Shown piece by piece: positions 15,518-38,097 of a stretch of 64,000 nucleotides of DNA. Position 1 is the stretch's first letter. Every line of letters starts with the position of its first letter. Origin of the DNA: Acidobacteriota bacterium (lineage in GTDB: Bacteria > Acidobacteriota > Terriglobia > Terriglobales > Acidobacteriaceae); the NCBI GenBank assembly GCA_003225555.1, contig QIAM01000014.1, positions 1 to 64,000 on the forward strand. The letters run 5' to 3'. The notes beneath the pieces were generated by a model that worked only from the letters and a program-made list of their open reading frames with translations, did not search any database and was not told the DNA's origin. The translations under genes were made by a program, and so were the position numbers.

Positions 15518-15630
15518 TGCCTACGATCTCGCCTACCACTTTCCCGCGAACAGGATCACCTTAGCCCTCCGTAACAATGAACCTCAATCAGGTTTCGAGG
15601 CGGGTCCTAAAGGCGGAATCTTGGTTGCGC

Positions 15631-18301
15631 TCAGATGGGGTTGACGGTTCCTCCACTCTGGTCTGGGCAGGTAAAGGTAATGGCCGACCAGTTGACCGTC
15701 GCGCCGCCCGCGACTTTCTGCTTGATTGTGATGTGACCTTTCGGTGCCCGCAGCGTTGCCACCGCCTCGCCGTCTACAGCCTGTCCGATGATGATATTTC
15801 CGTTCACCGATGTGATGTCGGCGACCGCGTGCTGGTCGATGCCTTCATCGATGGTGATATCGCCTTGGGCGACAATAGTGACCTCGGAGTGCTGGTCGAT
15901 CTTTTGTCCGATGTGAACCGTGGTTGCGGCAGTCAACCTCGCCTGAGAGTGTTGATCGACCTTCTCACCGATGTCGATGCCGCCCTTGGTCGAAGTGATG
16001 ATGATATCTCTCGACCATTGATCGATCTTCTGGCCGATGCTCACGTCGCCGTGGGCCAGGATCGTGGCCCGAGAGTGCTGATCAATCTTCTCGCCGATGT
16101 TCACGGCACCGCAGGCAGTCAGCGTGGCCTTGGAATTTTGATCGATTTTATGAGCGATGGTGATGCTGCCGTGCTGGCTGGTAAGATCCAGGACTAAGCC
16201 GCTGTCCACTTTGTCGACGGTTACATCTCCATTTGCCGACTTCACTGCTGATCCGGCACCACTGAAGCTTCCCAGGTTGACGGGCGGAAAAGGCCCACCG
16301 ACCGCGCAGTTATCGGGCAATCCAAAGGGTTCCAGGTGGTAGGTTATTGTGAAGTCGTTGCTGAAAGTGAGATTGCTGGATCCGCCACCGGCCTGGATGA
16401 GCGTCGTGAGGGTGTCCCTCCCAGGTGGTGAGATCGGAACCATGCAGATTGTCGATGTCGGCCCCGGTGTAGGTGGTCATCAGCTGTCCCCAGTGGGGCA
16501 CTCCACCGTGATTGATGGCTGCGCGCTGGACGCGGTCGATGAACTCCGCATTCCCCGCAAATTTTCGAATCAGTGGAATTTCTATGTGGCACGTTTTCGG
16601 GAACTTCGACATGCCGATGAGTGCGGTGGTTTTTGAGGTGTAGCGCAGCGACATCAGCCCGGCGACAGCAATGTTGCGGTTGTAGAGATCGCCGAAGATG
16701 GCGAGCACTTCGTCGACGAAGGCGATGTAGCCTTGCTTCACGTCGGTTGCCGCAGCGACATCGAAGGCGATCTCCATCGAGTCGACTTTCTGGCAAAGAT
16801 CTTCATACTTATAACCATATGTATCCATGATCTTCCAGCTGATGCGAGTTTGCGTCCACGGCTGCCCGTTCGACTTCGTAGGGTAGGCATTGTCGAACAA
16901 CATGAGGAGGGCGGCCTTCATCAGATCCTTGAGCCCGAACGCAAACGCGAAATTAGCGATCGCGGCAATCAGTTCCCCCGATGTCACACTGCCCGAGACG
17001 GTTAGGTATCCGATCAGCGTGGTGAGCGCGGCAATGGTTACCCCGAGTGCCGCGATTGCGGTTAGAGTTGCCGCCCAGGCGGCGTATAGAGCCGCAGCCA
17101 GGGCCCACCCGACGAATGGAATTGCAGCTAAAGCGGAAGCAGCGGCGAACTCGGCGGCAGCGAGGGCAACCAACGCTGCGACTGCTATAAGTCCGGCGAG
17201 CGCCGCCAAGAGCAGGGGGATGAATATCCTCACGTCCTGCTGTCTACAGATGAAACCTGCGAAGTCGAAGCCAGTCCCGTCCACAACCTGGTCAGCCGGG
17301 CAGTCCTTCAACTTGATTCTCTGGGCGAGCTTGCAGCCATGCATGTTTTGCCCGTTCGCGAAAGGGAGGATCAGCACTTGCAGAAAGTGCAGGCTCGGGT
17401 TCGCGACGAAATTGGCGAAATTGGTTGCGGTTAGATTAATGTTAAAATCTTCCCACACCTGGTCGGACCGGGTTTCCTGCAACTTGAAGGCGGGTACGGT
17501 CTTCACGACCAGCGAATAAACGAATCCCATGCGGCCGACTGAGACCAGGACGGAGCGAAAGAAATCGTCGTCCTTCTCGACTCGAATGTCCTTGCACAAT
17601 TCGGCCGCAGCGCCGCGAACGGTGGTTGCGATATTCTGCAGTTCCCTCTGAGTCTCCGCCTCAGTTCCCGCGGTGAGCCCATGGGATGGCTCAATCCACC
17701 ACTCCTGCCCGCCCGGGCCAATCAGGTGAATTGCCATGACGCAATCTGCGATCGGCGGCAAGAAGATGTCGCCGCCATGCGAACCCGTGGCCATCACCCC
17801 GGCAATGGATTGTCCGCCGCTGCCTCCCAAAGTGGGCAGCGCCCTCCGCCCCCAAACACCCTAGACCCTTCTCATCACAGGCCGGGTCTTTATCGTCCGA
17901 GCGCTTGCCCTCCTCCTCAACCGAAACGGGATCTAGGCCCTGCAAGATTCGGTTGACATTGAAGACCTTCGTCCCTCCCTTGATGTGAACGAGACTTTCC
18001 CTCACCGAGGGGTCCGATAGCGTCAAGTGGTCGAGAATGAGTTTGCTATCGATCACGCCAGTGATCGCATCGCTCTCGATCACCACGTCGCTAGAAACAA
18101 AATTTCCCATGAACGACCAGCGGCTGCCGGTCCACTTTACTTGCTTCTCGGCGGCCGCGGCCTGTCGGATGATCTCAACGATCTCGCCCCGGCTGGAGGG
18201 CCGAAGCGCCTTTCCAGCCGTGAAGGTGAAAGCCCGAGCCCAGTTGGTGAATGTTGCTGGGGAGGTCTGAGGCGTGGAATCAATCGGGGCGGGGATATCA
18301 T
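15631..18301 (-). pseudogene. Aldonolactone-oxidase-like FAD enzyme fused to a 20-residue repeat domain, broken by frameshifts
   Basis: Three minus-strand frames join into one gene of about 890 codons. From about 18270, FTNWARAFTFTAGKALRPSS then KWTGSRWSF starts an FAD_binding_4 domain, with HIKGGTKVFNVNRILQ. After a slip near 17838, GGSGGQSIAGVMATGSHG continues it. The cap region carries an Ala-rich hydrophobic stretch of about 85 residues (around 17235-16985). HWGQ in GGVPHWGQL matches the HWGK motif of L-gulonolactone/D-arabinonolactone oxidases. After a second slip at 16416-16422 the oxidase ends (SNDFTITYHLEPF) and a 20-residue repeat domain follows. At the 5' end, GGAGGCA-ATG near 18301 reads in frame only if one further base is dropped. 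The slips are +1 each. Substrate unknown; it looks decayed. Confidence 0.75.
15718..16149 (-). repeat. Seven coding repeats of about 20 residues (KIDQxS...IGx)
   Basis: Within the broken FAD-oxidase gene, seven successive units of 20-22 residues begin KIDQ, KVDQ, GIDQ or AVDG and end in xIxIGQ/E. Typical units are KIDQHSRATILAHGDVSIGQ and KIDQHSEVTIVAQGDITIDE. At DNA level they are about 60-66 bases long with a recurrent TGATCGATCTT-like core. The alternation fits one turn of a parallel beta-helix per unit. Confidence 0.85.
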
Positions 18302-18610
18302 GAAGTCATTGCCTCCTGAAATCTCGCTGCCGGTCCGCGTCGTGCGGTTGCGAATGATACATCAACATGCAAATGAGGGCACGTCACACGATCTGGGTAA
18401 TTGTGCAGTTTTGAGGCTCGACCGTTTCACGTCTGGGCACCATCAGGCGGAGGGAAGTTGAGATCACCGAGCCTGCCGCATAAGTGTTCCGCGACGATTC
18501 GCGAGGCTCTGAGGCTGTGGTACTATGCTCCGCACCTAATAGCGGCTTATGCTCTGATGTCGGCAACGAAACCAATGCTCTGAAGACCAACCTTTCGACA
18601 GGGAGCAGAT
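18302..18610. other. Divergent gap upstream of the TonB receptor
   Basis: No gene seen. It separates the minus-strand broken FAD-oxidase gene from the receptor and should hold the receptor promoter, but no boxes are clear. The receptor start at 18611 is preceded by AGGGAGCAGAT. Confidence 0.4.
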
Positions 18611-21600
18611 ATGCGGACGACCCTTAGTAGTCTTCCCTGGTTTGCCCTCACCGCGCTCATATTTTTTGCTCCGCCCGCTCCTGGGCAAGACACGGCCACG
18701 CTTACAGGCACGATTCGAGACCAGTCGGGCGCCAGCATTCCCGCGGCCGCAGTTGCGATTACGAATACGTCAACCGGCATGGTCCGACAACTGAAGAGCA
18801 ACTCGGACGGAGAGTACGTCGCTGCTGCCCTGCCACCCGGTACGTACAACGTCGCGGTGACAGCTCCCGGCTTCCACAGATATCAGGCGCAGGGCGTTGT
18901 CCTGCGTGTAGCCCAAGATGCGCGCATTGACGTGGCTCTGCAGGTAGGCGATGTCAACGTTCAGGTCACCGTCACTGGCGAAGGCCTCGCCCAGGTGAAT
19001 ACCCAGTCATCCGAGCTAGGTGGCATTATCACCGGCAAGGAATTGACGCAACTCCAACTGAACGGACGCAATTTCACCCAACTGATAACGCTCGTGCCGG
19101 GCGTGAGCAATCAAACCGGGCAGGACGAAGGCGTGGTTGGGGCCGAAGGTAGCATCAGCTACAGCGTCAATGGTGGCCGTACGGAATACAACAACTGGGA
19201 AGTGGATGGCGGCGACATGATGGACAACGGCAGCAACTTCTCGCTGAACGTCTATCCCAGTGTCGAGGCTATTGCCGAAGTCCAGGTGTTGACCTCGAAC
19301 TACGGCGCCCAATACGGAAAGAACGGTTCCGGCACTGTCGAAGTAGAAACCAAGTCAGGCACTAACCTTTTTCACGGTTCCGTGTGGGAGTTCGCCCGCA
19401 ACGAAGCGTTCAATGCGCACAACTATTTTGACTTTCCCGGTACGCCAAAGGCGGGCTACAAGAAACATGACTTTGGTTACAGCATCGGGGGCCCGATCTG
19501 GAAGAATCACACCTTCTTCTTCTGGTTGCAGAATTGGAGACGGGAAAAAATTCCTTCCAACTTCGTCAACTTCGTCCCCTCTCTGGCGAACCGTCAGGGG
19601 GATTTCACCGACGTCTGTCATCCTGCAGATCCGAATAACCTGACCGACTGCCCCCTCGACGTAAACGGAAACGAGTTTCCTAACGATCAAGTCCCGTTCA
19701 TCGATGCCAATGCACAAATTTTACTCAACATGATTCCCGCACCGAACGCCACCTCGGGCGGATTACCCGTCTTCGCCGCCTCGGTGCCCAAGCCGACGCG
19801 TTGGCGCGAAGACTTGGTACGAATTGACCATGATTTCAATTCCAAGGTGCGCGCCACCTTCCGCTCCATTCACGATTCTTGGGATACGGTGAACCCCACG
19901 GTTACCTGGGGAGGTCAGAGCTTTCCAACCATCGGAACGCACTTTATCGGTCCCGGCGTCGAACTGGTTGCCAGGCTGACCGCCACGGTCTCGCCTACGC
20001 TCCTCAACGAGTTCGTGGCTAGCTATACCACCGACCACATTAGGCAGATCAATACCAATCCTTCGGTGTGGACTCGCGACAAAAACTTCACCATGACCGG
20101 CCTATTTCCCGATTTCGGCGGAAAGCTGCCCGGATTCTGCGTTCAGACCAACGGCGCGTACGGTGGCGGCTTCTGCGAAGGCCCAACTGCGTTCCCTTGG
20201 CAGAACTCCAATCCAACCTTCACCCTTCGCGACAACGTTACCAAGAGTCTAGGCAAGCACAAACTGACGTTTGGCGCCTACTTCATGAACGCCCAGAAGA
20301 ATGAGATGGCATACACAGACCTCGGCGGCGACCTCGTATTCGACAGTACCTTCCCGGTTTCCACCGGAAATGCCTTCGCGGATATGTTGATGGGAAATAT
20401 CGCAAGTTTTACCCAAGCCAGCTCGCAGCCCAAATATCACATCAACTACAAGATCCTCGAGCCTTACTTCCAGGACGACTTCCACATCCGGAAGAATCTG
20501 ACTCTAAATCTTGGCGTGCGGATCAGCTTGTACGGAACTTTCTGGGAGACGAACCACCTCATCTCCAACTGGAAGCCCGGCGCCTATGATCCCAACACAG
20601 CGCCACAGATTGACATCGGTGGAAGCTTGACTGGCCAAGAGGGAGCGCTGGTCCCCGGCGTCGGAAATCCCTTCGACGGCATGGTGCAATGTGGAGTCGG
20701 CGGTGTGCCTCGAGGCTGTTTGAGTGGCCACTTATTCAACCCGGCGCCTCGCCTGGGTTTCGCCTGGGACCCTTTGGGAAATGGCAAGATGTCCATTCGC
20801 GGAGGCTATGGAATTTTCTTCGAGCACACCAACGGGCTGGATGCTAATGCGGAAGATCTGGAAGGCACTCCGCCGATCGTGCAGGTTCCTACGCAGTATG
20901 ATGTTGTGGGCTACACCAGCATCGGTGGTGGTGGATTGTTGTTCCCCCAGTCGACGACATCTATTCCCGATCGCGCCATCTGGCCCTACGTTCAGCAGTG
21001 GCACCTTGACGTACAGCGCGACCTGGGCAAGAACACGGTGGCCACACTGGCCTACGTCGGCGCCAAGGGAACCCACCTGACTTTGCAACATGAGCTCAAC
21101 CAGCTAGCTCCGGTTCCGGCAGCGCAGAATCCCTATCAGCCGGGGCAGGTTATTACCGACGATGACTGCAACTCGATTTCGATCGACCCCAGCACCGCGC
21201 AAGCAACTGCCACCGCCAACGTCGACACAGCCAACCCAGTCACGATGACCGGCAGCTGGGCTAACAATTTGGCCGTCGCTTGCGGAAACAATCCCGATGT
21301 CTTTCGCACTGCCTTTCCCGGCCTGGGATCGCTTCAGCGCATAGAATCGGTGGCCAATTCCAACTACAACGCGTTGCAGTTTTCCCTGCGCAAGACTAGC
21401 GGCCCGCTGACCCTGGATGTGGCCTACACCTACAGCCATTCCCTCGATAATTCATCCGACGCCTTCGACAGCAACTTCGTGAACTCGTACGACTTGGACA
21501 AGAACTATGCCAGCTCGAATCATGATCAGCGGCACATCCTGACCGTGGCGTGGGTTTACGAATTGTCGTTTCACGGAAAGGGTTGGTCACGTACCCTTTT

Positions 21601-22069
21601 CGGTGGATGGCAGCAATCAGGCATCATGACGTCACAAAGCGGGACGCCGTTTTCGGTGGTCGACGGCGTTATTGGCGACAACGCGGGAGTGGCTGACGGT
21701 ACGACTGGGATCGGATCGTTTGCTGATCGCGTAGGCAATCCATACGCAGTGCCCGCCTCTGACCCAACGATTAAAGGACGCCTGTTTTTCAATCCCGCCG
21801 CGTACGCCCAACCTCAAGGCCTGACCTTTGGCGACTCAGGCCGTAACAGCTTGAACAGTCCTCATCGAACAAACTTCGACATGGCGGTATACAAGATCTT
21901 CAAGCCGACAGAGAAAATAGATGTTCAGTTCCGCGCCGAAGCGTTCAACATCTTCAACCACACACAGTTCCAGGGTCTTGATAACTACGCCGGCACGACA
22001 ACGTTTATGTATTCCACCGGCGCCCACATGACCAGAGTGCTGCAGTTTGCTCTCAGGATCACGTTCTAA
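18611..22069 (+). CDS. TonB-dependent receptor, Oar-like, with carboxypeptidase-regulatory domain
   Basis: A 1152-residue outer-membrane protein. Residues 1-25 are a signal peptide ending in PGQ. Residues about 28-110 are a carboxypeptidase-regulatory-like (transthyretin-fold) domain: ATLTGTIRDQSGASIPAA, NSDGEYVAAALPPGTYNVAV. The plug follows (ELTQLQLNGRNFTQLITLVP; GGRTEYNNWEVDG; YGKNGSGTVEVETKSG), then a long beta-barrel with TonB-receptor-like segments (PAPRLGFAWDPLGNGKMSIR; RAEAFNIFNHTQFQG) ending in FALRITF with a terminal aromatic. These giant Oar-like receptors are abundant in Acidobacteria and probably import oligosaccharides or other large substrates; the ligand here is unknown. No adjacent hydrolase marks a utilisation locus. 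Confidence 0.92.
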   Translation: MRTTLSSLPWFALTALIFFAPPAPGQDTATLTGTIRDQSGASIPAAAVAITNTSTGMVRQLKSNSDGEYVAAALPPGTYNVAVTAPGFHRYQAQGVVLRVAQDARIDVALQVGDVNVQVTVTGEGLAQVNTQSSELGGIITGKELTQLQLNGRNFTQLITLVPGVSNQTGQDEGVVGAEGSISYSVNGGRTEYNNWEVDGGDMMDNGSNFSLNVYPSVEAIAEVQVLTSNYGAQYGKNGSGTVEVETKSGTNLFHGSVWEFARNEAFNAHNYFDFPGTPKAGYKKHDFGYSIGGPIWKNHTFFFWLQNWRREKIPSNFVNFVPSLANRQGDFTDVCHPADPNNLTDCPLDVNGNEFPNDQVPFIDANAQILLNMIPAPNATSGGLPVFAASVPKPTRWREDLVRIDHDFNSKVRATFRSIHDSWDTVNPTVTWGGQSFPTIGTHFIGPGVELVARLTATVSPTLLNEFVASYTTDHIRQINTNPSVWTRDKNFTMTGLFPDFGGKLPGFCVQTNGAYGGGFCEGPTAFPWQNSNPTFTLRDNVTKSLGKHKLTFGAYFMNAQKNEMAYTDLGGDLVFDSTFPVSTGNAFADMLMGNIASFTQASSQPKYHINYKILEPYFQDDFHIRKNLTLNLGVRISLYGTFWETNHLISNWKPGAYDPNTAPQIDIGGSLTGQEGALVPGVGNPFDGMVQCGVGGVPRGCLSGHLFNPAPRLGFAWDPLGNGKMSIRGGYGIFFEHTNGLDANAEDLEGTPPIVQVPTQYDVVGYTSIGGGGLLFPQSTTSIPDRAIWPYVQQWHLDVQRDLGKNTVATLAYVGAKGTHLTLQHELNQLAPVPAAQNPYQPGQVITDDDCNSISIDPSTAQATATANVDTANPVTMTGSWANNLAVACGNNPDVFRTAFPGLGSLQRIESVANSNYNALQFSLRKTSGPLTLDVAYTYSHSLDNSSDAFDSNFVNSYDLDKNYASSNHDQRHILTVAWVYELSFHGKGWSRTLFGGWQQSGIMTSQSGTPFSVVDGVIGDNAGVADGTTGIGSFADRVGNPYAVPASDPTIKGRLFFNPAAYAQPQGLTFGDSGRNSLNSPHRTNFDMAVYKIFKPTEKIDVQFRAEAFNIFNHTQFQGLDNYAGTTTFMYSTGAHMTRVLQFALRITF

Positions 22070-22236
22070 GCAGGCGCTGGCCAATTGGCTTTCTCTATGG
22101 GCAGCTTACAGTTCGGGACCCACAGCCGCCCACGTGACCGAAATCAGCCCCAGCCCTTTCGGGAATGGATCGGTTCGGTTAAACTGCGGCGTTGCACGAC
22201 GGTAGTCTGCAAAGTACTGTACGTCGCACGTCCAGA

Positions 22237-23193
22237 TTACGATCCCACGACCTCTACCGTGTCTTCCACAGAGATTTTCGCCACCGGCTTCTTCGCCCGC
22301 GTTGTGGCGATCACGACCACGCTGGTCAACACCAACAGAGTCCCCAGCATGGTTCGCAAGCCAAGCGCTTCACCGCCCAGGAAATACCCAACCAGCACCG
22401 CCACCACTGGATTCACATACGCGTAGGTCCCGACCTTCGTCGGCAACTCATGATGAATCAGCCACACGTAGGCCGTAAACGCGACGATGGAGCCCGCGAC
22501 GATCAGGTAGAGTAACGAAAACCATGCTCCTCGTGAGACGCTCGACGGATGGAAATTACGAAACTCGCCCAGCGCCGCCGCGGTGAGAGTCAGAAACACT
22601 CCGCCGGCAAGCATCTGCGCTCCCGAACTCATGACTTTGGAAGCAGGAAGCGGCAGCCTGCGCGAAAGTGCCGACGATACCGACCAGCTCATCGCCGCAA
22701 TGATCAGCGCCACCGCTCCTACCAGATCGATTGGCGCCCCGCCGACGTTCAACCCGCGACTCATCAGCACGGCCACTCCCCCAATACCGATCAAGAGCGC
22801 CAACGCCAGGCGGAGCGTCAGTCTCTGGGTTCGCAGGAAGATGATTTCCGACAGCGCCGTGAATACCGCGATCGTAGCCATCATCACTGCCGTAATGCCC
22901 GAAGGCACACGCTGTTCGGCCCAGAACACCAGTCCGTAGTCGATCACGAAGATCAGCACCGCGAGTAAAGATACCGACATCCACTGCCGTCCGCTCGGAG
23001 AGCGCTCGCCCCGTGCGATCATCCAGCCATACAGAACCAGCCCCGCAACCAGAAAACGCATAGCCGCAAGAAGAAACGGCGGAACTTCACGGACGCCGAT
23101 GCGAATGGCAAGAAATGTGGACCCCCAAACGAAATAGATAATGGCGAAAGCCAACACGGTCTTCCAGGTCGGGGGATGAGTCCTAGCGTCCAT
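22237..23193 (-). CDS. DMT-family (EamA) inner-membrane transporter
   Basis: A 318-residue inner-membrane protein with two EamA repeats and ten predicted membrane segments. The opening WKTVLAFAIIYFVWGSTFLAIRIG is the standard EamA first helix, and the second repeat begins near SLLYLIVAGSIVAFTAYVW. Overall it resembles YedA/RhaT-like drug/metabolite exporters, which often export amino acids or other metabolites in exchange for protons. The substrate cannot be read from sequence. Convergent with the TonB receptor; 167 bases separate the ends and no terminator is obvious. Confidence 0.88.
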   Translation of the reverse strand: MDARTHPPTWKTVLAFAIIYFVWGSTFLAIRIGVREVPPFLLAAMRFLVAGLVLYGWMIARGERSPSGRQWMSVSLLAVLIFVIDYGLVFWAEQRVPSGITAVMMATIAVFTALSEIIFLRTQRLTLRLALALLIGIGGVAVLMSRGLNVGGAPIDLVGAVALIIAAMSWSVSSALSRRLPLPASKVMSSGAQMLAGGVFLTLTAAALGEFRNFHPSSVSRGAWFSLLYLIVAGSIVAFTAYVWLIHHELPTKVGTYAYVNPVVAVLVGYFLGGEALGLRTMLGTLLVLTSVVVIATTRAKKPVAKISVEDTVEVVGS

Positions 23194-23384
23194 AGCCTAT
23201 TATGCGGGCGCAGCACGGCTGCCGCACGACTGAAGTTGCTCTGCCCAGTTGCCGATGAGTAGACCGGAGGCGATCCTCTGGATTGCGTATGGGGCACTTG
23301 ACTCGACCTACCACCCGCGCCAAGCCACATAGATCCCCCATTGGAGTCTTTTAAAGTTCCCAGACTGCTGGAGTTTTTCCGAAA

Positions 23385-25010
23385 ATGTCGATGACCAAAA
23401 TGGGAATGCTGCAGGCCGATAGAGCTGAAAGCCTCAGCACCAGCCTGGTTGCGTTGAAGGAGTTGGCCGATCAGAGGTTTGCCCTCGATCAACATGCGAT
23501 CGTCGCCATCACTGATGTTCAGGCACGATTACCTACGTGAACGACAAGTTTTGCGCCATCAGTCAGTACTCTAGAGCCGAATTGATCGGCCAGAATCACC
23601 GCATCCTCAACTCTGGCCACCATCCGACGGAGTTTTTCCGGCGGATGTATCACACCATCGCCGGCGGGAAGGTTTGGCACGGTGAGATCAAAAACCGGGC
23701 CAAAGACGGCTCCATCTACTGGGTGGACACCACCATCGTCCCCTTCATGAGCAGGGAAGGCAAACCACGCCAGTACGTCGCTGTCCGCGCTGATATTACT
23801 GATCGCAAGCGAACCGAAGAAGCGCTGAAGCAAGGCCTTGCCACGAGTGATCAAACCCTCAGGGAATTGGCTGACCAGAAATTCGCTTTGGATCAACACG
23901 CGATTGTGGCGGTAACCGACGTCCAAGGCACGATTACCTACGTCAACGACAAATTCTGCGACATCAGTAAGTATTCCAAGGCGGAACTCATCGGCCAGAA
24001 TCACCGCATCCTCAACTCTGGCCACCATCCCACGGAGTTTTTCGGGCGGATGTATCACACCATCGCCAACGGGAAGGTTTGGCACGGCGAGATCAAGAAC
24101 GGGGCAAAAGATGGCTCGATCTACTGGGTAGACACCACCATCGTCCCCTTCGTCGAGGCCGACGGGAAACCGAGGCAATATATGGCCATCCGTGCAGACA
24201 TCACCGAACGCAAGCGACTGGCGGCGGTAGTCGAGTCGTCCGATGACGCCATTATCGGCAAGACCTTAGATGGGACGATAACCGCCTGGAATCATGGCGC
24301 CGAGAACGTGTTTGGCTATTCGGCTACAGAGGCCATAGGCAAATCGATGCGGATGCTCATACCGCCCGAGCGCGCCAGTGAGGAAAGGGACATTCTGGCG
24401 CGCATTGGGCGCGGTCAGAGCGTCGAACATTTCGACACTGTCCGGGTCCGAAAGGATGGCAAGAGAATCGAGGTCTCGGCGACGATTTCGCCGATCAAGG
24501 ACAGCAGCGGCGCGATTGTTGGCGCCTCAAAAATTGCACGCGATGTCACGGAACGGAAGCTGCCGGAAGAAACTCTGAAGAAGAGCCTCGCCACCAGCGA
24601 CTCTGCGCTCAAAGAACTTGCCAATCAAAAGTTTGCCCTGGATCAGCATGCCATCGTGGCCATCACCGACGTCCAAGGAACGATTACCTACGTTAATCAC
24701 AAATTATGCTGCATCAGCCAATATTCCAAAGACGAACTGATCGGCCAGAATCACCGCATCCTCAACTCCGGCCACATCCCAAAGAGTTTTTCCAGCAGAT
24801 GTATCACACCATCGCCAGCGGGAAGGTTTGGCATGGAGAGATCAAGAACCGCGCCAAAGACGGTTCGATCTACTGGGTTGGTTTACCGTCGTGGTCGTGC
24901 CCAAGGCAGACCCGGTAGAAAAAGCGGGCACACTCCGGAGCCTGAGCACAGACAAAAACTTACCTCCGGAGCAACCGTTCTCTATCCCAGCTGGCTTAAC
25001 AGTTTGCTGA
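23385..25010 (+). pseudogene. Multi-PAS sensor protein, broken by three frameshifts and lacking a kinase
   Basis: From ATG 23385 the reading frame enters FALDQHAIVAITDVQ and then slips. One G is missing at 23522-23523 where sister copies read GTITYVNDKFC. PAS1 and PAS2 (to about 24210) are nearly identical: [55 protein letters not shown]3 (about 24215-24560) is of another type (SSDDAIIGKTLDGTITAWN). PAS4 repeats the first type but has lost a base near 24774 and another near 24882, ending in VVVVPKADP. There is no histidine kinase, GGDEF or other output domain before the stop at 25010. Probably the decayed N-terminal part of a sensor kinase. Confidence 0.72.
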
Positions 25011-25113
25011 AAAAACTCTGATTTTGGGTGGCGTAGTGTTTTCCAACCCTGCGATAGAGGCTTTCCTTTCTGTCGGGGCCTTGCAGTTCGCTGGAAAACT
25101 TGATTGCGGTTCG

Positions 25114-25151
25114 GTTTTGAAAGGGCGTGGCTTAGCCGTGCCGTAAGTGCC
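25114..25151 (-). repeat. Dispersed repeat (inverted copy of the element flanking the amidohydrolase gene)
   Basis: On the minus strand this reads GGCACTTACGGCACGGCTAA GCCACGCCC then TTTCAAAA, matching elements at 45745-45817 and 47306-47379. Confidence 0.6.
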
Positions 25152-25262
25152 GGTGGGGTGCCCCACTTCTCGCCCCTTTTGCGAGACCTGGGAGACAGCA
25201 GATGCCCGTACCAAGCTCCTGCTTAAAAGACAACTCCCGAAGTTCCTGGCGAGGTCAAACCG

Positions 25263-27398
25263 TCACCGGAAATTCTTCACCAGCATAAGATTGGATTCTG
25301 CGAATTCATTCTGAATATAGACGATGGACTTGCCGTCTTGCGACAAGCTCAGGCCCCAACCCGGTTCTTTCTCCAGAGTCCAGACAGGAATTGCTTTGCC
25401 GGTTGCGAATTCAAAGAAGTCGATGGTTACTAGAGGAAACTTTCCGAACTTCAGAAAATAGATTCCATCCGCATTGACTCCCCAATTGGGCCACGCGCCA
25501 CCATCCACATCTTTCAAGACTTCCGCTTCCTGGCCGCCCGGCAACGGAACTCGCCAAACCCCGCCTTGTTCGTACTTGCTGTAATAAAGATAGCGGCCCT
25601 CTGGTGACTCAACCGGAGAGATCCCACCATTTCTTGTAATCCTGATTGGCGAACCGCCCTCGACAGGCATTTTCCAAACCTGGAACGGTTCCGTGCCGCG
25701 CTTCGAGGCGAAATAAAGCCACTTGCCATCCCGGGACCAGCTTGGCGAGAGATTGTCCGAACCTGCGATGGTTGGTATAAGGTGAGGCAGTCCGCCCGGG
25801 ATCTCGGCAACGTAAATTTCGCCTCGCTCTTTAGGATGAAATTCGAACGCGATATGACGCCCATCGGGAGACCACCGGGCACGTCCCGCCGTTCCGTGCA
25901 AGGAGGTAATCTGGTCACAATTATTGCCTTCGACATCACAGGTCCATATATCCCAAAAGCCCAGGCGGTTGGATTCGAACGCAATCTTCTTCCCGTCAGG
26001 AGACAACTCCGGACGCATCTTGTCACCCTTCTCCAAGACCATCGCCGATGGCCGCCGGACATAGTGTTTTGCATCCTTCAGGTCGAGTCGCCAGATATTG
26101 AATTTGGATTCTCCCTGCTCGTAAACCAGGGTGTTGCCCTTCGCAGGAACGGACGGCCACGTTGCCTCGCCGACTGGGCCGGCCACCGGCCGCGGTTTAC
26201 AACCGGTTGCCGAGACTCTCCACAAACCCGTCGCGGCACCTCGGTTGGAAGAGAAAATTATTTCACGGCTGTCGGGGGTCCAGGTGGGAGGGCCCATGAT
26301 CGGCCGGTTGTCAAAAGTCAGGCGTTTGGCGTGCCCGCCCGCGGCGGGCATAACGAAGACGTCATTACTAACGCCCGCTACCGTAGATCGGACAAAAGCC
26401 AACTGGCGTCCGTCGGGCGAGAATGCCGGCTCGTGATCGAGCCAGCCTGCGGGCGGTGACGTAATCGCTCGCGTGCTGGAATCGGTGAGAGACAGAAGTG
26501 ATATGACGGAGCGAGTCGGATCTGTCGGATTGGTTTCAGAAAAAACCAGCAGATCGCTATTCGGCGACCAGGAAAGCCCCGCTCTCATCGAGGCCATTCC
26601 ACGGTACACACGATGTTCCGTCCCGCCCAGAGCAGGAATCGTAAGAATCGAAACATCTTTCTCGGCATAGCGAATAAACGCCAACTGACGGCTATCGGGA
26701 GACCAGGTTGGGCAGCAGTCGCCAGGATCACCCGTAAGCTGCAGCGACTTCTGCCCTCCTACGACCGCGGCGAAGATTCCGGTGTTATGCGCGCCATCAC
26801 TTTGACGGAAGGCAACTAATGTGCCGTCGGGCGAGAAAGCGGGAGTGGCTTGGAAGCCGCGTAAGCCGATCAAGGGCACTACCTCGATTCGCTCCAATTG
26901 CGAGTCAGGACTCGGCCGGTACAGCGCCCACGTTGTAAGCACACAGAACAGAGCTAAACAAAAGGTGATGCTCATCCAGATCTTTCCCGGAAGATGATGC
27001 ATGAGCCGTGTGCCGTTGTGAGCTGCCGGATTGACGCTGGGCACCGCTACGGTCGGCGTGGCAGCCTGGAGCGGAGCGATAAACCGGTACCCGCGCTTGG
27101 CGATAGTCTCGATGAATCGCGGCTTCTCCGCGGAATCGCGCAGAGCTTCCCGCAGCCGGGCCACCGCGCTGTTCAGGCCATGATCGAAGTCGACAAATGT
27201 GTCGGCGGGCCAAAGCGTTGCACGCAGCTCTTCCCGCGTAACCACTTCACCGGCTCGCTCGAGCAAGAGAAACAGAACACGGAAAGGCTGTTCTTGTATC
27301 TTGATTCGCCGCCCTTCCCTCCGCAGTTCGCCTGCCTGAAGATCAATCTGGAATACATCGAAGCTGACCATTGCTTCAGCGAACCGACTTTCTGACAT
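25263..27398 (-). CDS. Membrane-anchored winged-helix regulator with C-terminal TolB-type propeller
   Basis: A 711-residue CadC/ToxR-like protein. Residues about 10-105 are an OmpR-type winged helix (FDVFQIDLQAGELRREGRRI; QEQPFRVLFLLLERAGEVVT; WPADTFVDFDHGLNSAVARL; RFIETIAKRGYRFIAP). One membrane segment lies near residues 140-160 (MSITFCLALFCVLTTWALY). The periplasmic part is a WD40-like/TolB propeller with repeated SPDG/SPDS blades (AFSPDGTLVAFRQ; WSPDSRQLAFIRY; LSPDGKKIAFESN). The start ATG at 27398 fits the family; the open frame begins at 27494. Such proteins could sense envelope ligands and bind DNA directly. A frameshifted paralogue lies at 30312-32425. Confidence 0.87.
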   Translation of the reverse strand: MSESRFAEAMVSFDVFQIDLQAGELRREGRRIKIQEQPFRVLFLLLERAGEVVTREELRATLWPADTFVDFDHGLNSAVARLREALRDSAEKPRFIETIAKRGYRFIAPLQAATPTVAVPSVNPAAHNGTRLMHHLPGKIWMSITFCLALFCVLTTWALYRPSPDSQLERIEVVPLIGLRGFQATPAFSPDGTLVAFRQSDGAHNTGIFAAVVGGQKSLQLTGDPGDCCPTWSPDSRQLAFIRYAEKDVSILTIPALGGTEHRVYRGMASMRAGLSWSPNSDLLVFSETNPTDPTRSVISLLSLTDSSTRAITSPPAGWLDHEPAFSPDGRQLAFVRSTVAGVSNDVFVMPAAGGHAKRLTFDNRPIMGPPTWTPDSREIIFSSNRGAATGLWRVSATGCKPRPVAGPVGEATWPSVPAKGNTLVYEQGESKFNIWRLDLKDAKHYVRRPSAMVLEKGDKMRPELSPDGKKIAFESNRLGFWDIWTCDVEGNNCDQITSLHGTAGRARWSPDGRHIAFEFHPKERGEIYVAEIPGGLPHLIPTIAGSDNLSPSWSRDGKWLYFASKRGTEPFQVWKMPVEGGSPIRITRNGGISPVESPEGRYLYYSKYEQGGVWRVPLPGGQEAEVLKDVDGGAWPNWGVNADGIYFLKFGKFPLVTIDFFEFATGKAIPVWTLEKEPGWGLSLSQDGKSIVYIQNEFAESNLMLVKNFR

Positions 27399-27658
27399 TT
27401 CGTCACCGCTGGTTAGACGTAATTTTATCCCCGAAGTTAGTGATCCCCGGCTCGCTCGCCCGCTTCCGCCGCGTGATCTGCCGGGAAAGTCCATTTAGTT
27501 GACCAGCTTGGCTTCGTTACCCAAACGTGTGGAAACCGTGTGCAGCCTTGCATTGCCGCACACGTCCATTGCGGTGAACGTTGGGTTGAGAAACCGCACA
27601 GCAAGGAGCTGTTTCTCTACACACGAGTCTCTGTCCCTGTGATTCGAAGGAGGTCTTG

Positions 27659-28630
27659 ATGAACTCACGAACATTTCTTCTAGTTACGTCACCAGCTATT
27701 GTTTGGTTCTGCGTTTTCACGGCTGGGGCCGAACCCTTACAGAATGCAAAGCCGATTGGTGACACAAAAAACCCACAAGTGGACATTTCTTCTCTTCAGC
27801 AGCAGGCCCGCCAAGGAGATGCGAAGGCAGAGTACCTCCTAGGCTGGTCATACATGACCGGAACGGGCGTTTCACAGAACTTCGTGGAGGCTGCAAAGTA
27901 CTATCGTCAAGCCGCCGCACAGTCTTCGCCCGATGCCGAATTTGCGCTGGGGTATCTCTACGAACAAGGCAAAGGCGTGTTGCGTGACTACCACCAGGCT
28001 GCTGCCTACTACACAGCCGCAGCACAAAAGGGACACCTGACGGCCGAAAACAATCTGGGTTCCATGTACGAGTACGGCCGTGGCGTGCACAAGAACATTC
28101 GCCAAGCCCAACACTGGTATCGGATGGCAGCCGACCACGGAGACGTTACCGCACAATGCAACTTGGCCTCGTTGTACTTTCGCGGAGGACGCGTCCCGCG
28201 AAACTACCCACAAGCGGCGGAGTGGTTTAGGAAAGCAGCCGATCGTGGTTATGCGCCCGCTCAGGAAGATCTTGCCTGGATGTACTTCACCGGAACCGGT
28301 GTACCTCTGGACTATTCCAGCGCCGCACACTGGGTGCAAATGGCCGCTGATCAAGGGTTTGCGCGTGCGCAATTGGACCTGGCTTACCTCTACGAGCAAG
28401 GGAAGGGAGTTCCGCTCAACTACGTCAAGTCCTATATGTGGTACAAAGCCGCAGCGTCCGGAGGTGAGCAGCGGGCGATCGGCAGACTGAAAGGCTTATC
28501 GGCGGTGATGACGAAGGAACAGATCAGTCAAGCCAATGCGGCAGCCGGACAGTTATCTAGATCTCCGCCAAAAGTTGACGGCGCGGCAGACTCGAAATCG
28601 ATCGGGAGTTCATTCATTGGACCGCGCTAG
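27659..28630 (+). CDS. Secreted Sel1-repeat protein
   Basis: A 324-residue protein. The start ATG 27659 follows GAAGGAGG at 27646-27653 with five bases spacing. An N-terminal signal peptide (about 1-24) is visible. Residues about 50-275 contain six Sel1-like repeats of 36 residues: GDAKAEYLLGWSYMTGTGVS, SPDAEFALGYLYEQGKGV, HLTAENNLGSMYEYGRGV, DVTAQCNLASLYFRGGRV, YAPAQEDLAWMYFTGTGV and FARAQLDLAYLYEQGKGV. Sel1 proteins are alpha-solenoid scaffolds for protein-protein contacts; no partner is suggested. Divergent from the winged-helix/propeller gene. The C-terminal ~50 residues are low-complexity. Confidence 0.88.
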   Translation: MNSRTFLLVTSPAIVWFCVFTAGAEPLQNAKPIGDTKNPQVDISSLQQQARQGDAKAEYLLGWSYMTGTGVSQNFVEAAKYYRQAAAQSSPDAEFALGYLYEQGKGVLRDYHQAAAYYTAAAQKGHLTAENNLGSMYEYGRGVHKNIRQAQHWYRMAADHGDVTAQCNLASLYFRGGRVPRNYPQAAEWFRKAADRGYAPAQEDLAWMYFTGTGVPLDYSSAAHWVQMAADQGFARAQLDLAYLYEQGKGVPLNYVKSYMWYKAAASGGEQRAIGRLKGLSAVMTKEQISQANAAAGQLSRSPPKVDGAADSKSIGSSFIGPR

Positions 28631-28638
28631 CGACCAGT

Positions 28639-28893
28639 TCAGGTGGAATCGATTCCGCCGGGTTTGCTCCAGTAGATGCCTGCCGGCAATCCCGTAATGC
28701 GATACGATCCGATGGCATCGGTGGTCGTCTGTATGTCCGTGATCGACATTGAGCCGCTCAGCATGATTCCTGCGCCTACGACTGCCAGATGCTGCTCATC
28801 GGTTACCGTCCCTTGGAGGGTGGAGGTGGTTTGGGCTGCAAGGCGAAAAGGCCCTACGGCTAGGACGCCACAGAGAAGTGTCCGGAGTATCAC
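28639..28893 (-). pseudogene. Remnant of an Oar-like TonB receptor (signal peptide plus start of regulatory domain)
   Basis: 84 codons from GTG 28893. A signal peptide (LRTLLCGVLAVGPFRLAAQ) is followed by a carboxypeptidase-regulatory-like segment (TTSTLQGTVTDEQHLAVVGA ...GSYRITGLPAGIY), as at the N-terminus of the receptor at 18611. It then ends abruptly instead of continuing into plug and barrel. The stop is only nine bases from the end of the Sel1 gene, so the rest was probably deleted. A genuine small secreted protein is possible but less likely. Confidence 0.55.
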
Positions 28894-29248
28894 CCCCTGG
28901 CCACCACGGAGCAGCCCGGCGCACTTTCACGCCACGCTTCGATCCAAGAATGATGCACGATACTTCCCAGATCGGCGGAACTCCGCACCAACATGAGTCA
29001 CGATCTGAGACTAATGTCCTGGATAGTGAAGGCGAGATTACAAGGTTCTCATTGACTGGCAGACATCGCGTCGTCACAATCCGGAGCCATTACTTCCGGA
29101 TTGCGCGCTCGCCCCGAATCGCGGTCCGAACAAGTAGATCGTCTGCGCTTGCTATAGTTCCCCAAGCGTGAAGAAGAACGTAGGGAAAACGGGCGAGCCG
29201 TGAGGCTCACCCGTCGGAAGGTTCGCGTGAATACCTACAGCCGGAAGC
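28894..29248. other. Gap without a recognised gene
   Basis: No supported coding region or RNA gene. The open frames here resemble nothing known. It may be further debris of the receptor remnant at 28639-28893. Confidence 0.45.
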
Positions 29249-29572
29249 TCAGGCAGCTCTTTCCGCTGCCATCTTCTGCCCGGTCGAAGTGTGTACATCG
29301 AACGTACGGAGGTTCGGTTCGCCCTGCAGAAGGTGCCGCACTGATTCGTGGATGTTCTTATACTGCTCGCGGTGATAACGCTCAGCGTCCTCCTTCGTAT
29401 TCCAGAAGCTGAGAGCGACCACTTTATCGGGTTCTGCGTCCGAGTTGAGAATGATCTCATCCACGAAGCCACTCTGTTTTTTCAGGATGGGAACGCCTTT
29501 TTCCTTGATGGTGTTGGAGAGTTCTTTCGCTTTTCCGGGCTTACTGGTGAGTTCGACTAGACGTGTAAACAT
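29249..29572 (-). CDS. Antibiotic-biosynthesis-monooxygenase-like (ABM) small protein
   Basis: 107 residues. The start was set at ATG 29572, preceded on the coding strand by AAAGGAGC. The ferredoxin-like ABM fold is suggested by FTRLVELTSKPGKAKELSNT, a central QSGFVDEIILNSD and the conserved VALSFWNTKEDAERYHREQY. Family members are dimeric and include haem-degrading and quinone-forming monooxygenases, but many have no known activity. No neighbour clarifies a role. Confidence 0.8.
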   Translation of the reverse strand: MFTRLVELTSKPGKAKELSNTIKEKGVPILKKQSGFVDEIILNSDAEPDKVVALSFWNTKEDAERYHREQYKNIHESVRHLLQGEPNLRTFDVHTSTGQKMAAERAA

Positions 29573-29841
29573 CGGTTTGCTCCTTTCGTCGGTTAGAAGG
29601 TGAAAGGAACCGCCGTGGGCGCGGCGACGGATCAATTTGTTGGTATGAATCCACGCTACGCCTCGCCGGACTCCCGGTCAATTGCCCAGAATTGGTGCAG
29701 TGAGTTTTGCTGGCTTGCTTCCCCTGAGTCGTAGAGAACTGTAAAAGGATGTGTCGGGACATTTTGTAAAGCATGTGTCTGCCGGACTCTTATCCGGGAG
29801 CTGGACCTAGCAAGCCAGCCCTCCCAAGGCGATTCTCTGAG

Positions 29842-30243
29842 CTAGCCGTGTTCGACGCGCGCCTTTATATCCGAGTACGCCGCATCGATGAGCCTGCTTA
29901 GCGCTGCGGCGTTCGTGGCCGTTCCCGGTCTCAACTTCACATGGCGCATGAACTTGCCGGTGCCTTGCAACAAGCGGGCCGGATCCGGCAGTGCTGCGCC
30001 GTGAAAGAACCCCACGTTTACGTGCGAAGTGAATACATTGACGTAGCCGAACGGCACATCTCCCAAACATGCCACCGGACAGCCGTCATGCAAAAGTTCC
30101 CGGACTTCGTCCCCGCATTTTCGCATCACCTCAAACCACTGATGCGCGATGGCTCCCAATTCACCTGCATGCTCGTTCATCCACGCATCGATGGTGGGAT
30201 CCCGCTCGACAGCGCCGTTGAATCGCAGCAATTCCGTTCTCAT
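29842..30243 (-). CDS. DUF1801 family protein
   Basis: 133 residues matching the DUF1801 (YdhG/Fra-like) pattern: RKCGDEVRELLHDGCPVACL near the middle, FGYVNVFTSHVNVGFFHGA, then LLQGTGKFMRHVKLRPG. The domain is a small alpha-beta fold; some relatives are reported iron-binding chaperones, but the biochemical role of most is unknown. No membrane segment or signal peptide. Single gene flanked by unrelated genes on the same strand. Confidence 0.82.
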   Translation of the reverse strand: MRTELLRFNGAVERDPTIDAWMNEHAGELGAIAHQWFEVMRKCGDEVRELLHDGCPVACLGDVPFGYVNVFTSHVNVGFFHGAALPDPARLLQGTGKFMRHVKLRPGTATNAAALSRLIDAAYSDIKARVEHG

Positions 30244-30311
30244 CGTCGCTCCACATCAACATCGGCGACCACAAACTCGCGGAGGGCTGGCTGGCCAGCC
30301 CGCGTTGCCGG

Positions 30312-32425
30312 TTAATGGAAGTTTTTCATCAACATGATATTGGATTGTTTGAACTCGTTTTGAACATACAAGATGGATCTGCCATCTCCAGATAGGACCA
30401 ATCCCGGACCATATGGCTTCTCCAGGGTCCAGATAGGAATGATTCTGTGCGTGGCAAATTCGAAGAATTGTACAGTCGCGTGGGGCTGGGTATTGACCCT
30501 TCGGATGAAGTAAATTCCATTCTGCCCAAGTGCCCAGTTGAACCAGAATAACCCCTGATCCAAAACGCGGGTTTCTTCGCCGCCCTGCAGTGGCATCTTC
30601 CATATGCCTGGCACGTCAAACTTCGAGTAATAAAGAAAGCGGCCATCGGCTGATGCCGCGGCAAAAACGCCGCCGTTCTTGGTTACCTGGACAGGGGGTC
30701 CTCCGTTGAGTTGTATCTTCCATAATTGAAACGGCCCGCCACCTCGGTCAGAGTAGAAATAAATCCACTTTCCATCTCGCGACCAATTGGGCCCTCCGTT
30801 ATCCGCTCCTGGTAAGGTGGCCAGCAGCCGCGGCCTGCCTCCTCCCACCTCAAGAAAATATACTTCGCTGTGTTCTTGGGGACGAAACTCAAAGGCGATA
30901 TAGTGGCCGTCCGGCGACCAACGCGCGGCTCCAGCCGTACCGTGCAAGGAAGTCAATTGCCCACAATTCGACCCGTCACTGTCGCAAGCCCAAATTTCCG
31001 GATACCCGAAGCGAGCCGATTCGAACGCAATCCTTTTCCCGTCGGGAGAAAAGTGCGGCCGCCCAGCCCCGCCTTTTCCCGATATGACCTCCGCAGGCGG
31101 GCCCTGGCGATGTTTTTCGTCCCTCAGGTTCAACCGCAAAATGTTGAGCTTGCCGGGAGAACCCTGCAGATAAACGAGCTGATTACCTTTAGGAGAAATG
31201 GAAGGGAGCACGGCGTCCACACCGACACCTGGAACCGGCCGTGGTGTCCCTCCGGAAGCGGATATGCGCCACAGAGTCTCGGAACCTCCACGCAGCGAAG
31301 AGAACACGATATCGCGACCGTCCGGAGTCCAAGTGATTCCATCTATGAAGCACTTATCAAAACTCAGCCGTTTAGGTGCGCCACCCGTGGCGGGCACAAC
31401 ATAGAGGTCCTCCACAACACCCGTAGCAATCGCTCGGACAAAAGCCACGGTCGAGCCATCGGGCGAGAAAGCAGGACCAAAATCGAGCTCCTGACCTGAC
31501 GGTGACGTAAGCCGTCGTGTGGTGGAATCGAGCGAAAGCAACGCAATCCAGGTGTGGGTTTTGTCCGTCTGGCTCTCCGAAAAGGCCAGAACTTTGCCAT
31601 CCGGCGACCAATCCAAGGACCGAGGAAAAATACTGACGGGCCCTGAGTATAACCGGTGCTCAGTACCGCCAAAAGCTGGCATCACGTAAATAGCAACTCC
31701 CTCGTCAGTGGGGCGGGAAAAAGCGAGCTGTCGGCCATCCGGTGACCACCGCGGACAGCAGTCGCCAGAATTGCTAGTCAGGCGCAGCGACTTCTCGCCC
31801 CCGACCACCGTCGTGTAAATCCCGGAATTCTCCTTGCCATGGAGGTCAAAGGCGACCTGGTTGCCGTCGGGCGAAAAAGCCGGCGAACCCTCAAAACCAG
31901 GCAGGCCGACCAAGGGCACCACCTCAATTGGGGGCAGCGGCGTTTCTGCTCGGTTTCGCGCTAACCGCCAGATTCCAATCCCGGAGAGCAGGGCTAACAA
32001 CGTGGTCCCGACTGACATCCACCGTGCTTTCGGCGCGAGTCTCTGCAAGCCCACTTTCGCAAGACGAGGTGAGGCTACCTGTGCACTTGGCTTCTCCACT
32101 GGCCGATAAAACGATAGCCGCGGCGAGGGAGAGTCTCCACAAACCTCGGATTGTCGGCGTCGTCTCGCAGCGCGATTCGGATCTTGGTGATAGCTGTATT
32201 GAGGGCGTGGTCAAAGTCGACAAAGGTGTCTTCGGGCCAGACCTGCTGGCGCAGCTCTTCCCGCGTAACCAATTCGCCCGAGTGTTTCAGCAGGATGGCA
32301 CAGACTTGAAACGGCTGTCCCTGCAGTGGCACCTTCACTCCATTCTTGTGCAGTTCCCCCGTCTGTAAGTCCGCTTCAAAGATTCCGAAGCGAACAATCT
32401 GCGCAGAACGGTTGGCCTCGTCCAT
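30312..32425 (-). pseudogene. Winged-helix/TolB-propeller protein, split by a one-base frameshift
   Basis: The first part (32425 to about 32102) is an OmpR-type winged helix (RFGIFEADLQTGELHKNGVK; WPEDTFVDFDHALNTAITKI; RGYRFIG). The second frame, from about 32100 to 30312, supplies a membrane segment (VGTTLLALLSGIGIWRLA) and a propeller with SPDG blades closely similar to the intact paralogue at 25263-27398. In the paralogue the two parts are one chain. Adding one C in GGCC (32101-32104) would join them as ...RGYRFIGPVEKPSAQ... Either the DNA-binding half has been uncoupled or the base is missing by error. Both halves otherwise look well conserved. Confidence 0.8.
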
Positions 32426-32631
32426 GTAACACCAGCCTTGTGAACCGGAACTCTAGCACTCTCAGTCAGCTTTTCCAACTTGGACCTCTGGAGGTGCTTA
32501 TCCAAACCCCCTACCGACAACACATTAGCGATAGCGGATAAATAGTTATGCAATGTATGCGGCGTTCATTGAGGTACCTGAACCTGTAATTCAGCGTAGG
32601 CGTCACCGCGAATCACCAAGGGGTGAACGCC

Positions 32632-33537
32632 ATGAACTGCCCGCTTTTCTCCACTGGTCTGCTGGTCATCCTCACACTGTCCCATGCCGACCGCAGTTGG
32701 TCCCAGGCGATCACTGCGCCTGCTGATCCCGCATTGCAGGGAGCACACTCGTCCGCTCACCTGTTGATAAAACTTCCTATCCGTCTGTATTGGGGCTATT
32801 TGGTTGTCGTTGAAGGATCAATTGGCAATATCCAGAAGCTAAATTTCCTGGTGGACACCGGGGCCTATCCAAGTGTCGTCGACCAAAAAATCGCGTGTAG
32901 CCTTGGGCTGGCCGAACAGCCCGGTAGAGTGAATCTGTCGAATAAGAGTGTTCAGACGCGGCTGGTCGTCCTGCCTTCCCTGCTTCTTGGCCCGGTTCAT
33001 GTCGAGTCCCTCCACGTTCTGACGGAAGACCTCTCCTTTTTTCAGAAGGCCTTCGGCCAAAGGGTGGATGCGATTGTCGGTCTGGATGTTCTCAGGAAAA
33101 GCAGTTTTAGCATCAACTATAGGACGAAGGAAATGCTCTTCGGTCCGATCGCGAGCCTGACTTTCTCCGCACCATTCGACACCGATGTACCTGTTGTGAC
33201 CATTCGAATGGAATTCCAAAATCGACAGCTCCGCCTAGTGGTCGATTCGGGCGGACCGGACCTGATGCTCTTCCAAAGTCGGATGCCAGACCCCACCGGC
33301 CTTCAGGCGTTAGGGACCCAAACGGTTGCCGACGTCAGTGGCACATTTCAGCGCAGGAAAGTGAGGATTTCTGAGGTATCTTTAGGCAAAGTAACAATCG
33401 GCTCGCAAATCGCGTTTGTGGTGGATGACCGAAAGGATGACGGAGATAGTTTTGATGGCGTTTTGGGGGTTAGGGGGCCTCAGTTCTGGAAAATTGCATT
33501 TGACTTTGAACACCGCAGGTTTAGCTGGGAACGCTAG
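32632..33537 (+). CDS. Secreted retropepsin-like aspartic protease
   Basis: A 301-residue protein from ATG 32632 (AAGGGG at 32617-32622). It has an N-terminal signal-like segment, then two retropepsin-type half-domains. The first carries the catalytic-type loop [16 protein letters not shown] (D-T-G) and a later [10 protein letters not shown]; the second carries [15 protein letters not shown] (D-S-G) and FDGVLGVRG. Two D-T/S-G loops in one chain suggest a monomeric pepsin-like active site, whereas viral retropepsins dimerise. Substrates unknown. Neighbours are unrelated. Confidence 0.8.
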
Positions 33538-33626
33538 CAGGCAGGCTGATCCCGAACGACGATTCTTTCCGAGCGACGCGCAAACCGGAAGGAATTCTGG
33601 CTAAGGCAGCGCTTATTCTGCGACCC

Positions 33627-37815: not shown

Positions 37816-38097
37816 CTTGTCCCCCAGTACAGGAAATACTGTAGAGATAATTCCCTAGGGCCTGTGCTACGTATGCATATTGGCTGGTATGCTCCCCCCA
37901 GACCTCTACAGCCTATTACCAGTCGACTCCGTGCGGCTGCTGGAGTGCTTTGCCGCCGAACAGGAGCGGTTCTGGCGGTGGCCACGTAACTTAATGCCCG
38001 TCAAATTGGAATGCCCGATCCGCTCGACGCCATCGCCGTCTGAACCAGCCGTATGGCGTGTCCATACCCGTTTGTTTTTGATCCAGGAGATAGGGAT

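Follow-up and report, generated by a model that had tools for sequence, protein, structure and literature searches.

The oxidase gene analyzed here lies in a 64,000-nucleotide stretch of acidobacterial DNA (the window). Translation of all three minus-strand frames shows that one protein is spread over three frames at positions 15631-18301. In protein order, an FAD domain of the VAO/ALO type is followed by a cap region that contains a hydrophobic block, by the motif HWGQ, and then by the nine coils of a repeat tail. The N-terminal part of the FAD-binding domain is in a first open segment (approximately 18242-17851, minus strand), which includes GSRWS at the flavin-linking position (the Trp codon is at 18117-18119, minus strand). 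The rest of the FAD domain (GGQSIAGVMATGSHG), the cap region, HWGQ, and core are in a second open segment (approximately 17850-16415, minus strand). The third (16443-15634, minus strand) has no in-frame stop and encodes the end of the core and then the repeats. Within it, the last core residues (TFSNDFTITYHLEPFG, 16321..16368) align with the end of a relative that we call L005 and with other relatives, and the residues past the last coil, together with the stop codon, are at 15631..15678 (both minus strand). A profile that includes the window as one of its rows matched 17838-18242 in the first segment (E = 2.4e-39) and 16415-17851 in the second. At the 5' end (18243..18301, minus strand) there is an ATG at 18301 with AGGAGG upstream. 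The start site of the oxidase gene is uncertain, as this ATG is out of frame with the first homologous segment.

An earlier note on this DNA had proposed a single gene joined across three indels. We confirmed its coordinates, its strand, and the broken frames, but only two of the frame changes are within the gene; the third is at its 5' end. In each segment, one frame has no in-frame stops and each of the other two has 5-23. The GC content by codon position is about.57/.44/.71 and is alike in all three segments. (Stops and GC were counted over 17851-18242, 16430-17830, and 15634-16420.) Of six other genes in the window that we measured, two have much the same signature (.55/.45/.68 for the gene at 18611 and.59/.47/.71 for the gene at 22237), and the other four are less similar. 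Because there are no in-frame stops and a single codon signature, the broken frames are either assembly errors or the result of very recent inactivation. The genome is a draft (4.42 Mb in 114 contigs, 86% complete), and this contig has 115,960 bases.

The last 16 or so residues of the core and the repeats are in one unbroken open frame. Since TFSNDFTITYHLEPFG is homologous to the core ends of the relatives and is in the same frame as the repeats, the fusion of oxidase and repeats, which the earlier note had described, needs no frame correction. So, the fusion is real despite the frame breaks, and we found no identical architecture in the searches that we made. A plus-strand open frame also covers the repeats (15577..16197). 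We rejected it because the minus-strand frame shares the gene's codon signature and continues into the homologous core end.

Relatives of the oxidase are sparse and scattered within the phylum Acidobacteriota. The second open reading frame had matches in 4 of the 396 genomes in our sample of the phylum, including its own genome. A search of contigs across genomes gave one relative, L005, a 640-residue protein from Bryobacterales bacterium F-183. With L005 as the query, 8 of 298 genomes from the order had a match, including the genome of the window; the other seven matches were weak (E = 4.8e-5 to 8.1e-4), and the four that we inspected were canonical. At E = 1e-15, 5 of 399 genomes from the class had a match, including the window's genome and that of L005, and two of the five were canonical proteins with GGGHSW. 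(L028 and L029 look canonical, with GGGHSW, and were left out of the alignment, as was genome G1172, with L089 and L090.) Further searches gave matches in 6 of the 160 genomes in the family of G873, in 2 of the 119 in the order of G075 (of which one was canonical), in 1 of the 100 in the class of G261 (namely, in G261), and in 2 of the 8 in the order of G259. These samples of genomes overlap. Beyond the phylum, we covered the contig search (which finds close relatives), plasmids, and viral contigs. Plasmids had no match by tblastn to L005, the repeat region, or the core piece, and the viral contigs that were scanned with the repeats and with L005 had no relative. All 20 of the same-genus genomes listed lack a match to L005. 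The window's own genome has just one strong match. It also has a second, weak ALO-type match (E = 7.3e-5 with L005) on contig C87, at 64615-64833 (L018), which is inside a 497-residue open frame.

The piece of the protein from the second open reading frame is 51% identical to L002 over query residues 1-129. Its match to L005 covers query residues 1-471, and the best segment is 27% identical. We aligned 10 clade members, including the window's protein, with 5 canonical rows (N-termini were cut for L083, L084, and L086, and tails were cut for L006 and L027). In a tree from 381 columns, the clade and the five canonical rows split at 100/100. The branching around the window's protein lacks resolution, so tail swapping and tail loss are indistinguishable.

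We then considered which fold and family these proteins belong to. FAD-binding domain 4 (PF01565) was found in L005, L006, L004, and L002 (52.6, 43.7, 42.0, and 42.4 bits) and in L027 (50.8 bits), against a curated threshold of 26.4. So, a VAO/PCMH-type FAD fold was recognized in five members of the clade, although L002 is partial. The separate pieces from the window had no match to PF01565 at E up to 1; the domain is split by the frame change. For the ALO domain (PF04030), the window's core piece scored 20.8 bits in its C-terminal half, which is below the gathering score of 23.1. L005 is above this cut-off, at 26.2 bits, and L004 and L027 are below it. The lactone-oxidase models from NCBIfam (TIGR01678 and TIGR01679) gave 39.7 against 396.8 and 21.6 against 292.25 for the window's piece, which lacks the N-terminal segment. 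The four relatives that were scanned, including L005, were all far below the NCBIfam cut-offs as well.

The solved relatives of the core are L-galactono-lactone dehydrogenase and alditol oxidase. A profile of the clade (8 rows, without L002 and L006) matches a profile of the canonical proteins (5 rows) with E = 3.1e-29, and the FAD-binding motifs are conserved throughout the clade in our 15-row alignment. These similarities indicate that the FAD-binding and cap regions are homologous to those of lactone oxidases and alditol oxidase. Judging from the sequences, the family has branched off and diverged within a known fold, and it is distantly related to the vitamin-C-type lactone oxidases. The earlier note had described an ALO-type FAD domain. 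The core is indeed ALO-like, but the name aldonolactone oxidase is not supported, given the scores for PF04030 (20.8 versus 23.1) and NCBIfam (39.7 versus 396.8) and given that neither the linking His nor the Lys of HW(G/A)K is present.

We examined the active-site positions in the columns of the same alignment. The flavin-linking position is His in all five canonical rows, which were partly chosen by motif: four of the nine loci L010-L018 passed a filter for HW[GA][KQ] and G[GS].[HWYL]S, and the fifth row, L087, was added from a profile match. Within the clade, this position is Trp in 8 of 10 proteins, including the window's, Tyr in L005, and His in L086. So, the window's protein has Trp in place of the His in GSGHS that marks a covalent flavin. 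HWGQ, which the earlier note had spotted, is at 16484..16495 (minus strand), where all five canonical rows have HWGK or HWAK. The Lys of this motif, which aldonolactone oxidases have, is replaced in 9 of 9 clade members (by Gln in eight and by Leu in L006). The placements of the flavin-linking site and of HWGK agree with a profile-profile alignment from hhalign (8 clade and 5 canonical rows). L086 (4759-6480) keeps the flavin-linking His, yet has HWGQ. It may be an intermediate form that connects canonical ALO with the other members of the clade.

For galactonolactone dehydrogenase, PMC11099136 reports that the substrate is held by Arg388 and Lys456, a pair that it calls conserved in the aldonolactone oxidoreductases, and that the enzyme can use oxygen once an Ala next to the flavin is changed to Gly. 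It also describes the FAD of the plant enzyme GalDH as non-covalent. We take Lys456 to be the Lys of HWGK. Similarly, residue 113 in the solved A113G variant of GalDH is probably the oxygen-gate Ala of that paper. We located the gate position from the wild-type and A113G rows of GalDH together with this paper. Within the clade, Gly is at this position in 9 of 10 rows, and L006 has Ser; in the canonical rows it is Gly in 1 of 5 and Ala in 4 of 5.

The catalytic Arg is a more difficult case. The motif [SA]-[LFMI]-R has an invariant Arg in 9 of 9 clade rows. One alignment sets the canonical E-x-R against it, and then the Arg is kept in 9 of 9 rows and the Glu becomes Ser or Ala in 9 of 9. An earlier alignment and the profile-profile alignment from hhalign set E-x-R against another stretch. 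Because these two alignments disagree with the first, we withdrew a firm reading of a conserved catalytic Arg; whether it appears to survive depends on the alignment used.

The cap contains an Ala-rich hydrophobic block of about 82 residues, as judged by hydropathy (16994..17239, minus strand). It is a continuous stretch, residues 198-279 of the translation of 16313-17830, and the sequences on its two sides, which are in one frame with it, align with intact relatives. This bears out the earlier note, which had given its length as about 85 residues. Between two aligned anchors, the cap stretch has 112-120 residues in the canonical rows (n = 5) and 131-368 residues in nine clade rows. (L002 was left out of this comparison because it is cut by the end of a contig.) There are 236 residues in the window's protein, 219 in L005, 260 in L085, 368 in L006, and 131-172 in L004, L027, L083, L084, and L086, so the enlarged cap is a trait of part of the clade. 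The mean hydropathy of the insert over 60 residues reaches 2.02 in the window's protein and at most 1.20 elsewhere. Among the clade rows that we compared, only the window's protein is so strongly hydrophobic over 60 residues.

The fold does include a membrane-bound member, D-lactate dehydrogenase. Our literature search for a membrane-bound member of the VAO fold found none. According to PMC11099136, animal GULO may touch a membrane via a short, low-confidence region. L005, L006, L004, and L027 all lack an N-terminal hydrophobic segment above the threshold, which speaks against simple Sec export. We also considered a phage origin, as residues 132-269 of the core piece are similar to a tail tape-measure model (phrog_2854, E = 5.8e-4). 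We rejected this idea: these residues include most of the Ala-rich block, so we read the match as probably compositional.

The repeat tail (15679..16233, minus strand) has nine coils of 20-22 residues each, with the consensus G-D-[IV]-T-I-G-Q-K-[IV]-D-Q-H-S-x-A-T-[IL]-T-A. The earlier note had counted seven KIDQ repeats at the C terminus. The C-terminal repeat region is there, but with nine coils, and KIDQ is exact in only four of them (one coil has KVDQ and another has GIDQ). The mean BLOSUM62 score of the tail against itself is 0.84 at a lag of 62 residues and 0.55 at a lag of 20; across 1000 shuffles, the best value over lags 5-69 was -0.04. At the DNA level, Tandem Repeats Finder reports just 2.1 copies of 60 bases (16018-16143). 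The tandem coils of about 20 residues, with hydrophobic positions at regular intervals, are what is expected of a solenoid. Because of this spacing and the coil pattern, the coils probably form a beta-solenoid.

Database matches to the tail are weak. FapA (PF03961) is the sole Pfam model listed, with E = 0.14. The tail has no match to bactofilin (PF04519) at E up to 1, and no match to the sequences of solved structures at E up to 1. Among the 396 genomes of the phylum sample, we accepted no separate protein with these coils: a lone weak match outside the window (E = 9.1e-4, 26% identity, with one internal stop) was rejected as a homologue. Our searches did not find a second fusion of an oxidase to coils. 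Judging by titles and the beginnings of abstracts, none of the papers among the matches listed describes such a fusion, which is weak evidence, as subscription papers were thinly covered.

Nine members of the clade, including the window's protein, have complete C-termini. Six of these (L004, L005, L083, L084, L085, and L086) end with the core and three have tails. The end of the core in L005, TFSTVFSRKVGLEPLEG, aligns with TFSNDFTITYHLEPFG. The coil tail is found in the window's protein only. In L027 (5327-8458), the FAD oxidase-like core is fused to a PLL-lectin beta-propeller (E = 2.8e-21 to PDB:5c9o). The tail of L006 matches choice-of-anchor D (115 bits versus 45) and HYDIN-like Ig (74.4 versus 25.5). 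L006 (13239-17612) is 1457 residues long, with Ig-type anchor domains at its C terminus and three Cys-containing repeats similar to WRWCHKCQGLFF inserted in its cap. So, the search for intact acidobacterial homologues that the earlier note had proposed did give complete proteins, of which 6 are without the repeats and 2 have other tails. It gave no repeat protein separate from the oxidase, and this outcome is between support for and refutation of the note's view. Going by the sequences, the window's tail is one case of a more general habit of carrying tails in this clade.

The gene is within a variable 18-kb stretch (15564..33585) between a bactofilin (14881-15423, plus strand) and murJ (33627-35261, minus strand). 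The bactofilin and oxidase genes are convergent. Across 15 regions from the same genus (a choice from 26 genomes), the bactofilin adjoins relatives of window 11017-13641 and 14000-14623 in 14; in the other, L069, the bactofilin alone was seen. (We take these two genes to be RNase R-like and DinB-like.) The oxidase is in none of these 15 regions at E = 1e-10. By tblastn, murJ follows in 6 of the 15 and is not in the stretch that was fetched for the other nine. The 18-kb stretch is absent or replaced in 5 of 5 congeners that we compared: its counterpart is about 860 bases in G439 and about 100 in G547, and there is other DNA of about 8.2, 6.3, and 2.6 kb in L062, L063, and L067. Over six genomes of the genus, the distance from bactofilin to murJ varies from about 0.1 kb to 18 kb, so this may be an insertion hotspot. 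The oxidase's neighbors in the stretch include a TonB-type receptor, an EamA transporter, and PAS and PD40 propeller proteins. The window contains no tRNA, and a scan of nine proteins from the stretch gave no integrase. Elsewhere in the window, at 38644-41306, a unit of 276 bases (92 residues) is tandemly repeated 9.6 times within a 2128-residue open reading frame (38053..44439). These repeats look, we presume, like the HAMP-type chain of a sensor kinase.

The earlier note had linked the oxidase to the adjacent bactofilin, and this link did not stand up. We rejected a partnership because the genes are convergent, the bactofilin is kept in 15 same-genus regions that lack the oxidase, and the bactofilin has no significant sequence similarity to the repeats (BLASTP E = 0.33). 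Because the gene sits in a stretch that is lacking or replaced in all five congeners, the bactofilin neighborhood looks incidental.

Overall, we lean toward viewing this protein as a modular flavoprotein with the VAO/ALO fold, from a clade that is sparse among acidobacteria; as it stands in this assembly, the copy is broken. FAD would be bound without a covalent link. The protein would still be a redox enzyme, with a substrate other than the usual sugar lactone, and it might use oxygen. The hydrophobic stretch of the cap would be set against or in the membrane, and the coils would form a beta-solenoid that acts as a binding or anchoring module. By analogy, this is the role proposed for the PLL-lectin propeller or the choice-of-anchor Ig domains in the relatives: the clade would keep the enzyme and vary the tail. 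Because of the frame breaks, the copy in the window may not be made. It is compatible with this preferred reading, and only a little short of an even bet, that the gene was acquired, inactivated by frame changes, and has no function in this lineage. Decay of this kind would fit with two internal frame changes and another at the start, with a gene that has a single strong match in its own genome and none in the 20 same-genus genomes listed, and with a location in a stretch that is missing or replaced in 5 of 5 congeners. But the absence of in-frame stops and the uniform signature across codon positions argue against lasting decay, and in a draft assembly of this quality (86% complete, 114 contigs), indel errors are plausible.

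It seems unlikely that this protein is a true sugar-acid or lactone oxidase and a member of the ALO family that has simply diverged. This idea would fit with the match to the ALO domain in its C-terminal half (20.8 bits, with L005 above the cut-off at 26.2), with the best solved relatives, which are aldonolactone and alditol enzymes, and with the catalytic Arg that one alignment keeps. However, the window's protein, L004, and L027 are under the Pfam gathering score, and four scanned relatives are far under the NCBIfam cut-offs. Furthermore, the Lys of HWGK is replaced in 9 of 9 members, while the Arg-Lys pair is conserved in aldonolactone oxidoreductases (PMC11099136). The loss of this Lys, and possibly of two further canonical active-site residues (Glu and Arg), could instead mean that the flavin fold is a catalytically dead scaffold for tails that bind surfaces, such as the binding-type tails of L027 and L006. 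We consider this even less probable, as the clade conserves the FAD-binding motifs, and in the six complete relatives that end without a tail, the core must have a function of its own. Returning to the modular flavoprotein, a bolder version of it is that the clade consists of undescribed flavoenzymes with an ALO-type fold, an altered active site, a variable hydrophobic insert in the cap that places the enzyme at a membrane, and exchangeable beta-rich tails (solenoid, lectin propeller, or anchor-type Ig domains) that are aimed at different glycans or surfaces. We offer this version as a doubtful but possible extension.

Flavoenzymes of the ALO type are known mainly as compact sugar oxidases. 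If the bolder version is true, then the clade would represent a new flavoenzyme design, in which the active site is altered, the hydrophobic cap is enlarged, and the binding tails can be exchanged. Three members of the clade (L005, L027, and L085) have one open frame each, which allows direct expression and assay. As for the window, its architecture is real and unusual; the copy is frame-broken or mis-assembled and is one of a kind within the searches that we made.

Among the closest known systems are the aldonolactone oxidoreductases (ALO, GULO, and the plant GalDH/GLDH; PF01565 with PF04030), which share the FAD-binding domain, the cap region, and the HWG motif with the window's protein. Unlike them, the window's protein has Trp at the site of the linking His, a replacement for the Lys of HWGK, a longer cap, and a repeat tail; its counterpart of E-x-R lacks a safe placement. 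Plant GalDH has non-covalent FAD (PMC11099136), and we expect the same of the window's protein from its sequence. The alditol (xylitol) oxidase AldO (PDB:2vfr) matches by profile over the FAD domain and weakly around HWGK. AldO has GSGHS and HWGK, and with 422 residues, it has no room for the block or the tail. The lectins PLL and PHL from Photorhabdus (PDB:5c9o and others) resemble the tail of L027, which is in the same place as the window's coils, but these lectins are beta-propellers, unlike the coils. Finally, bactofilin (PF04519), FapA (PF03961), and other beta-solenoid repeat proteins have short beta-coil repeats, as the window's tail probably does, although the tail has no significant sequence match to bactofilin or FapA and is fused to an enzyme.
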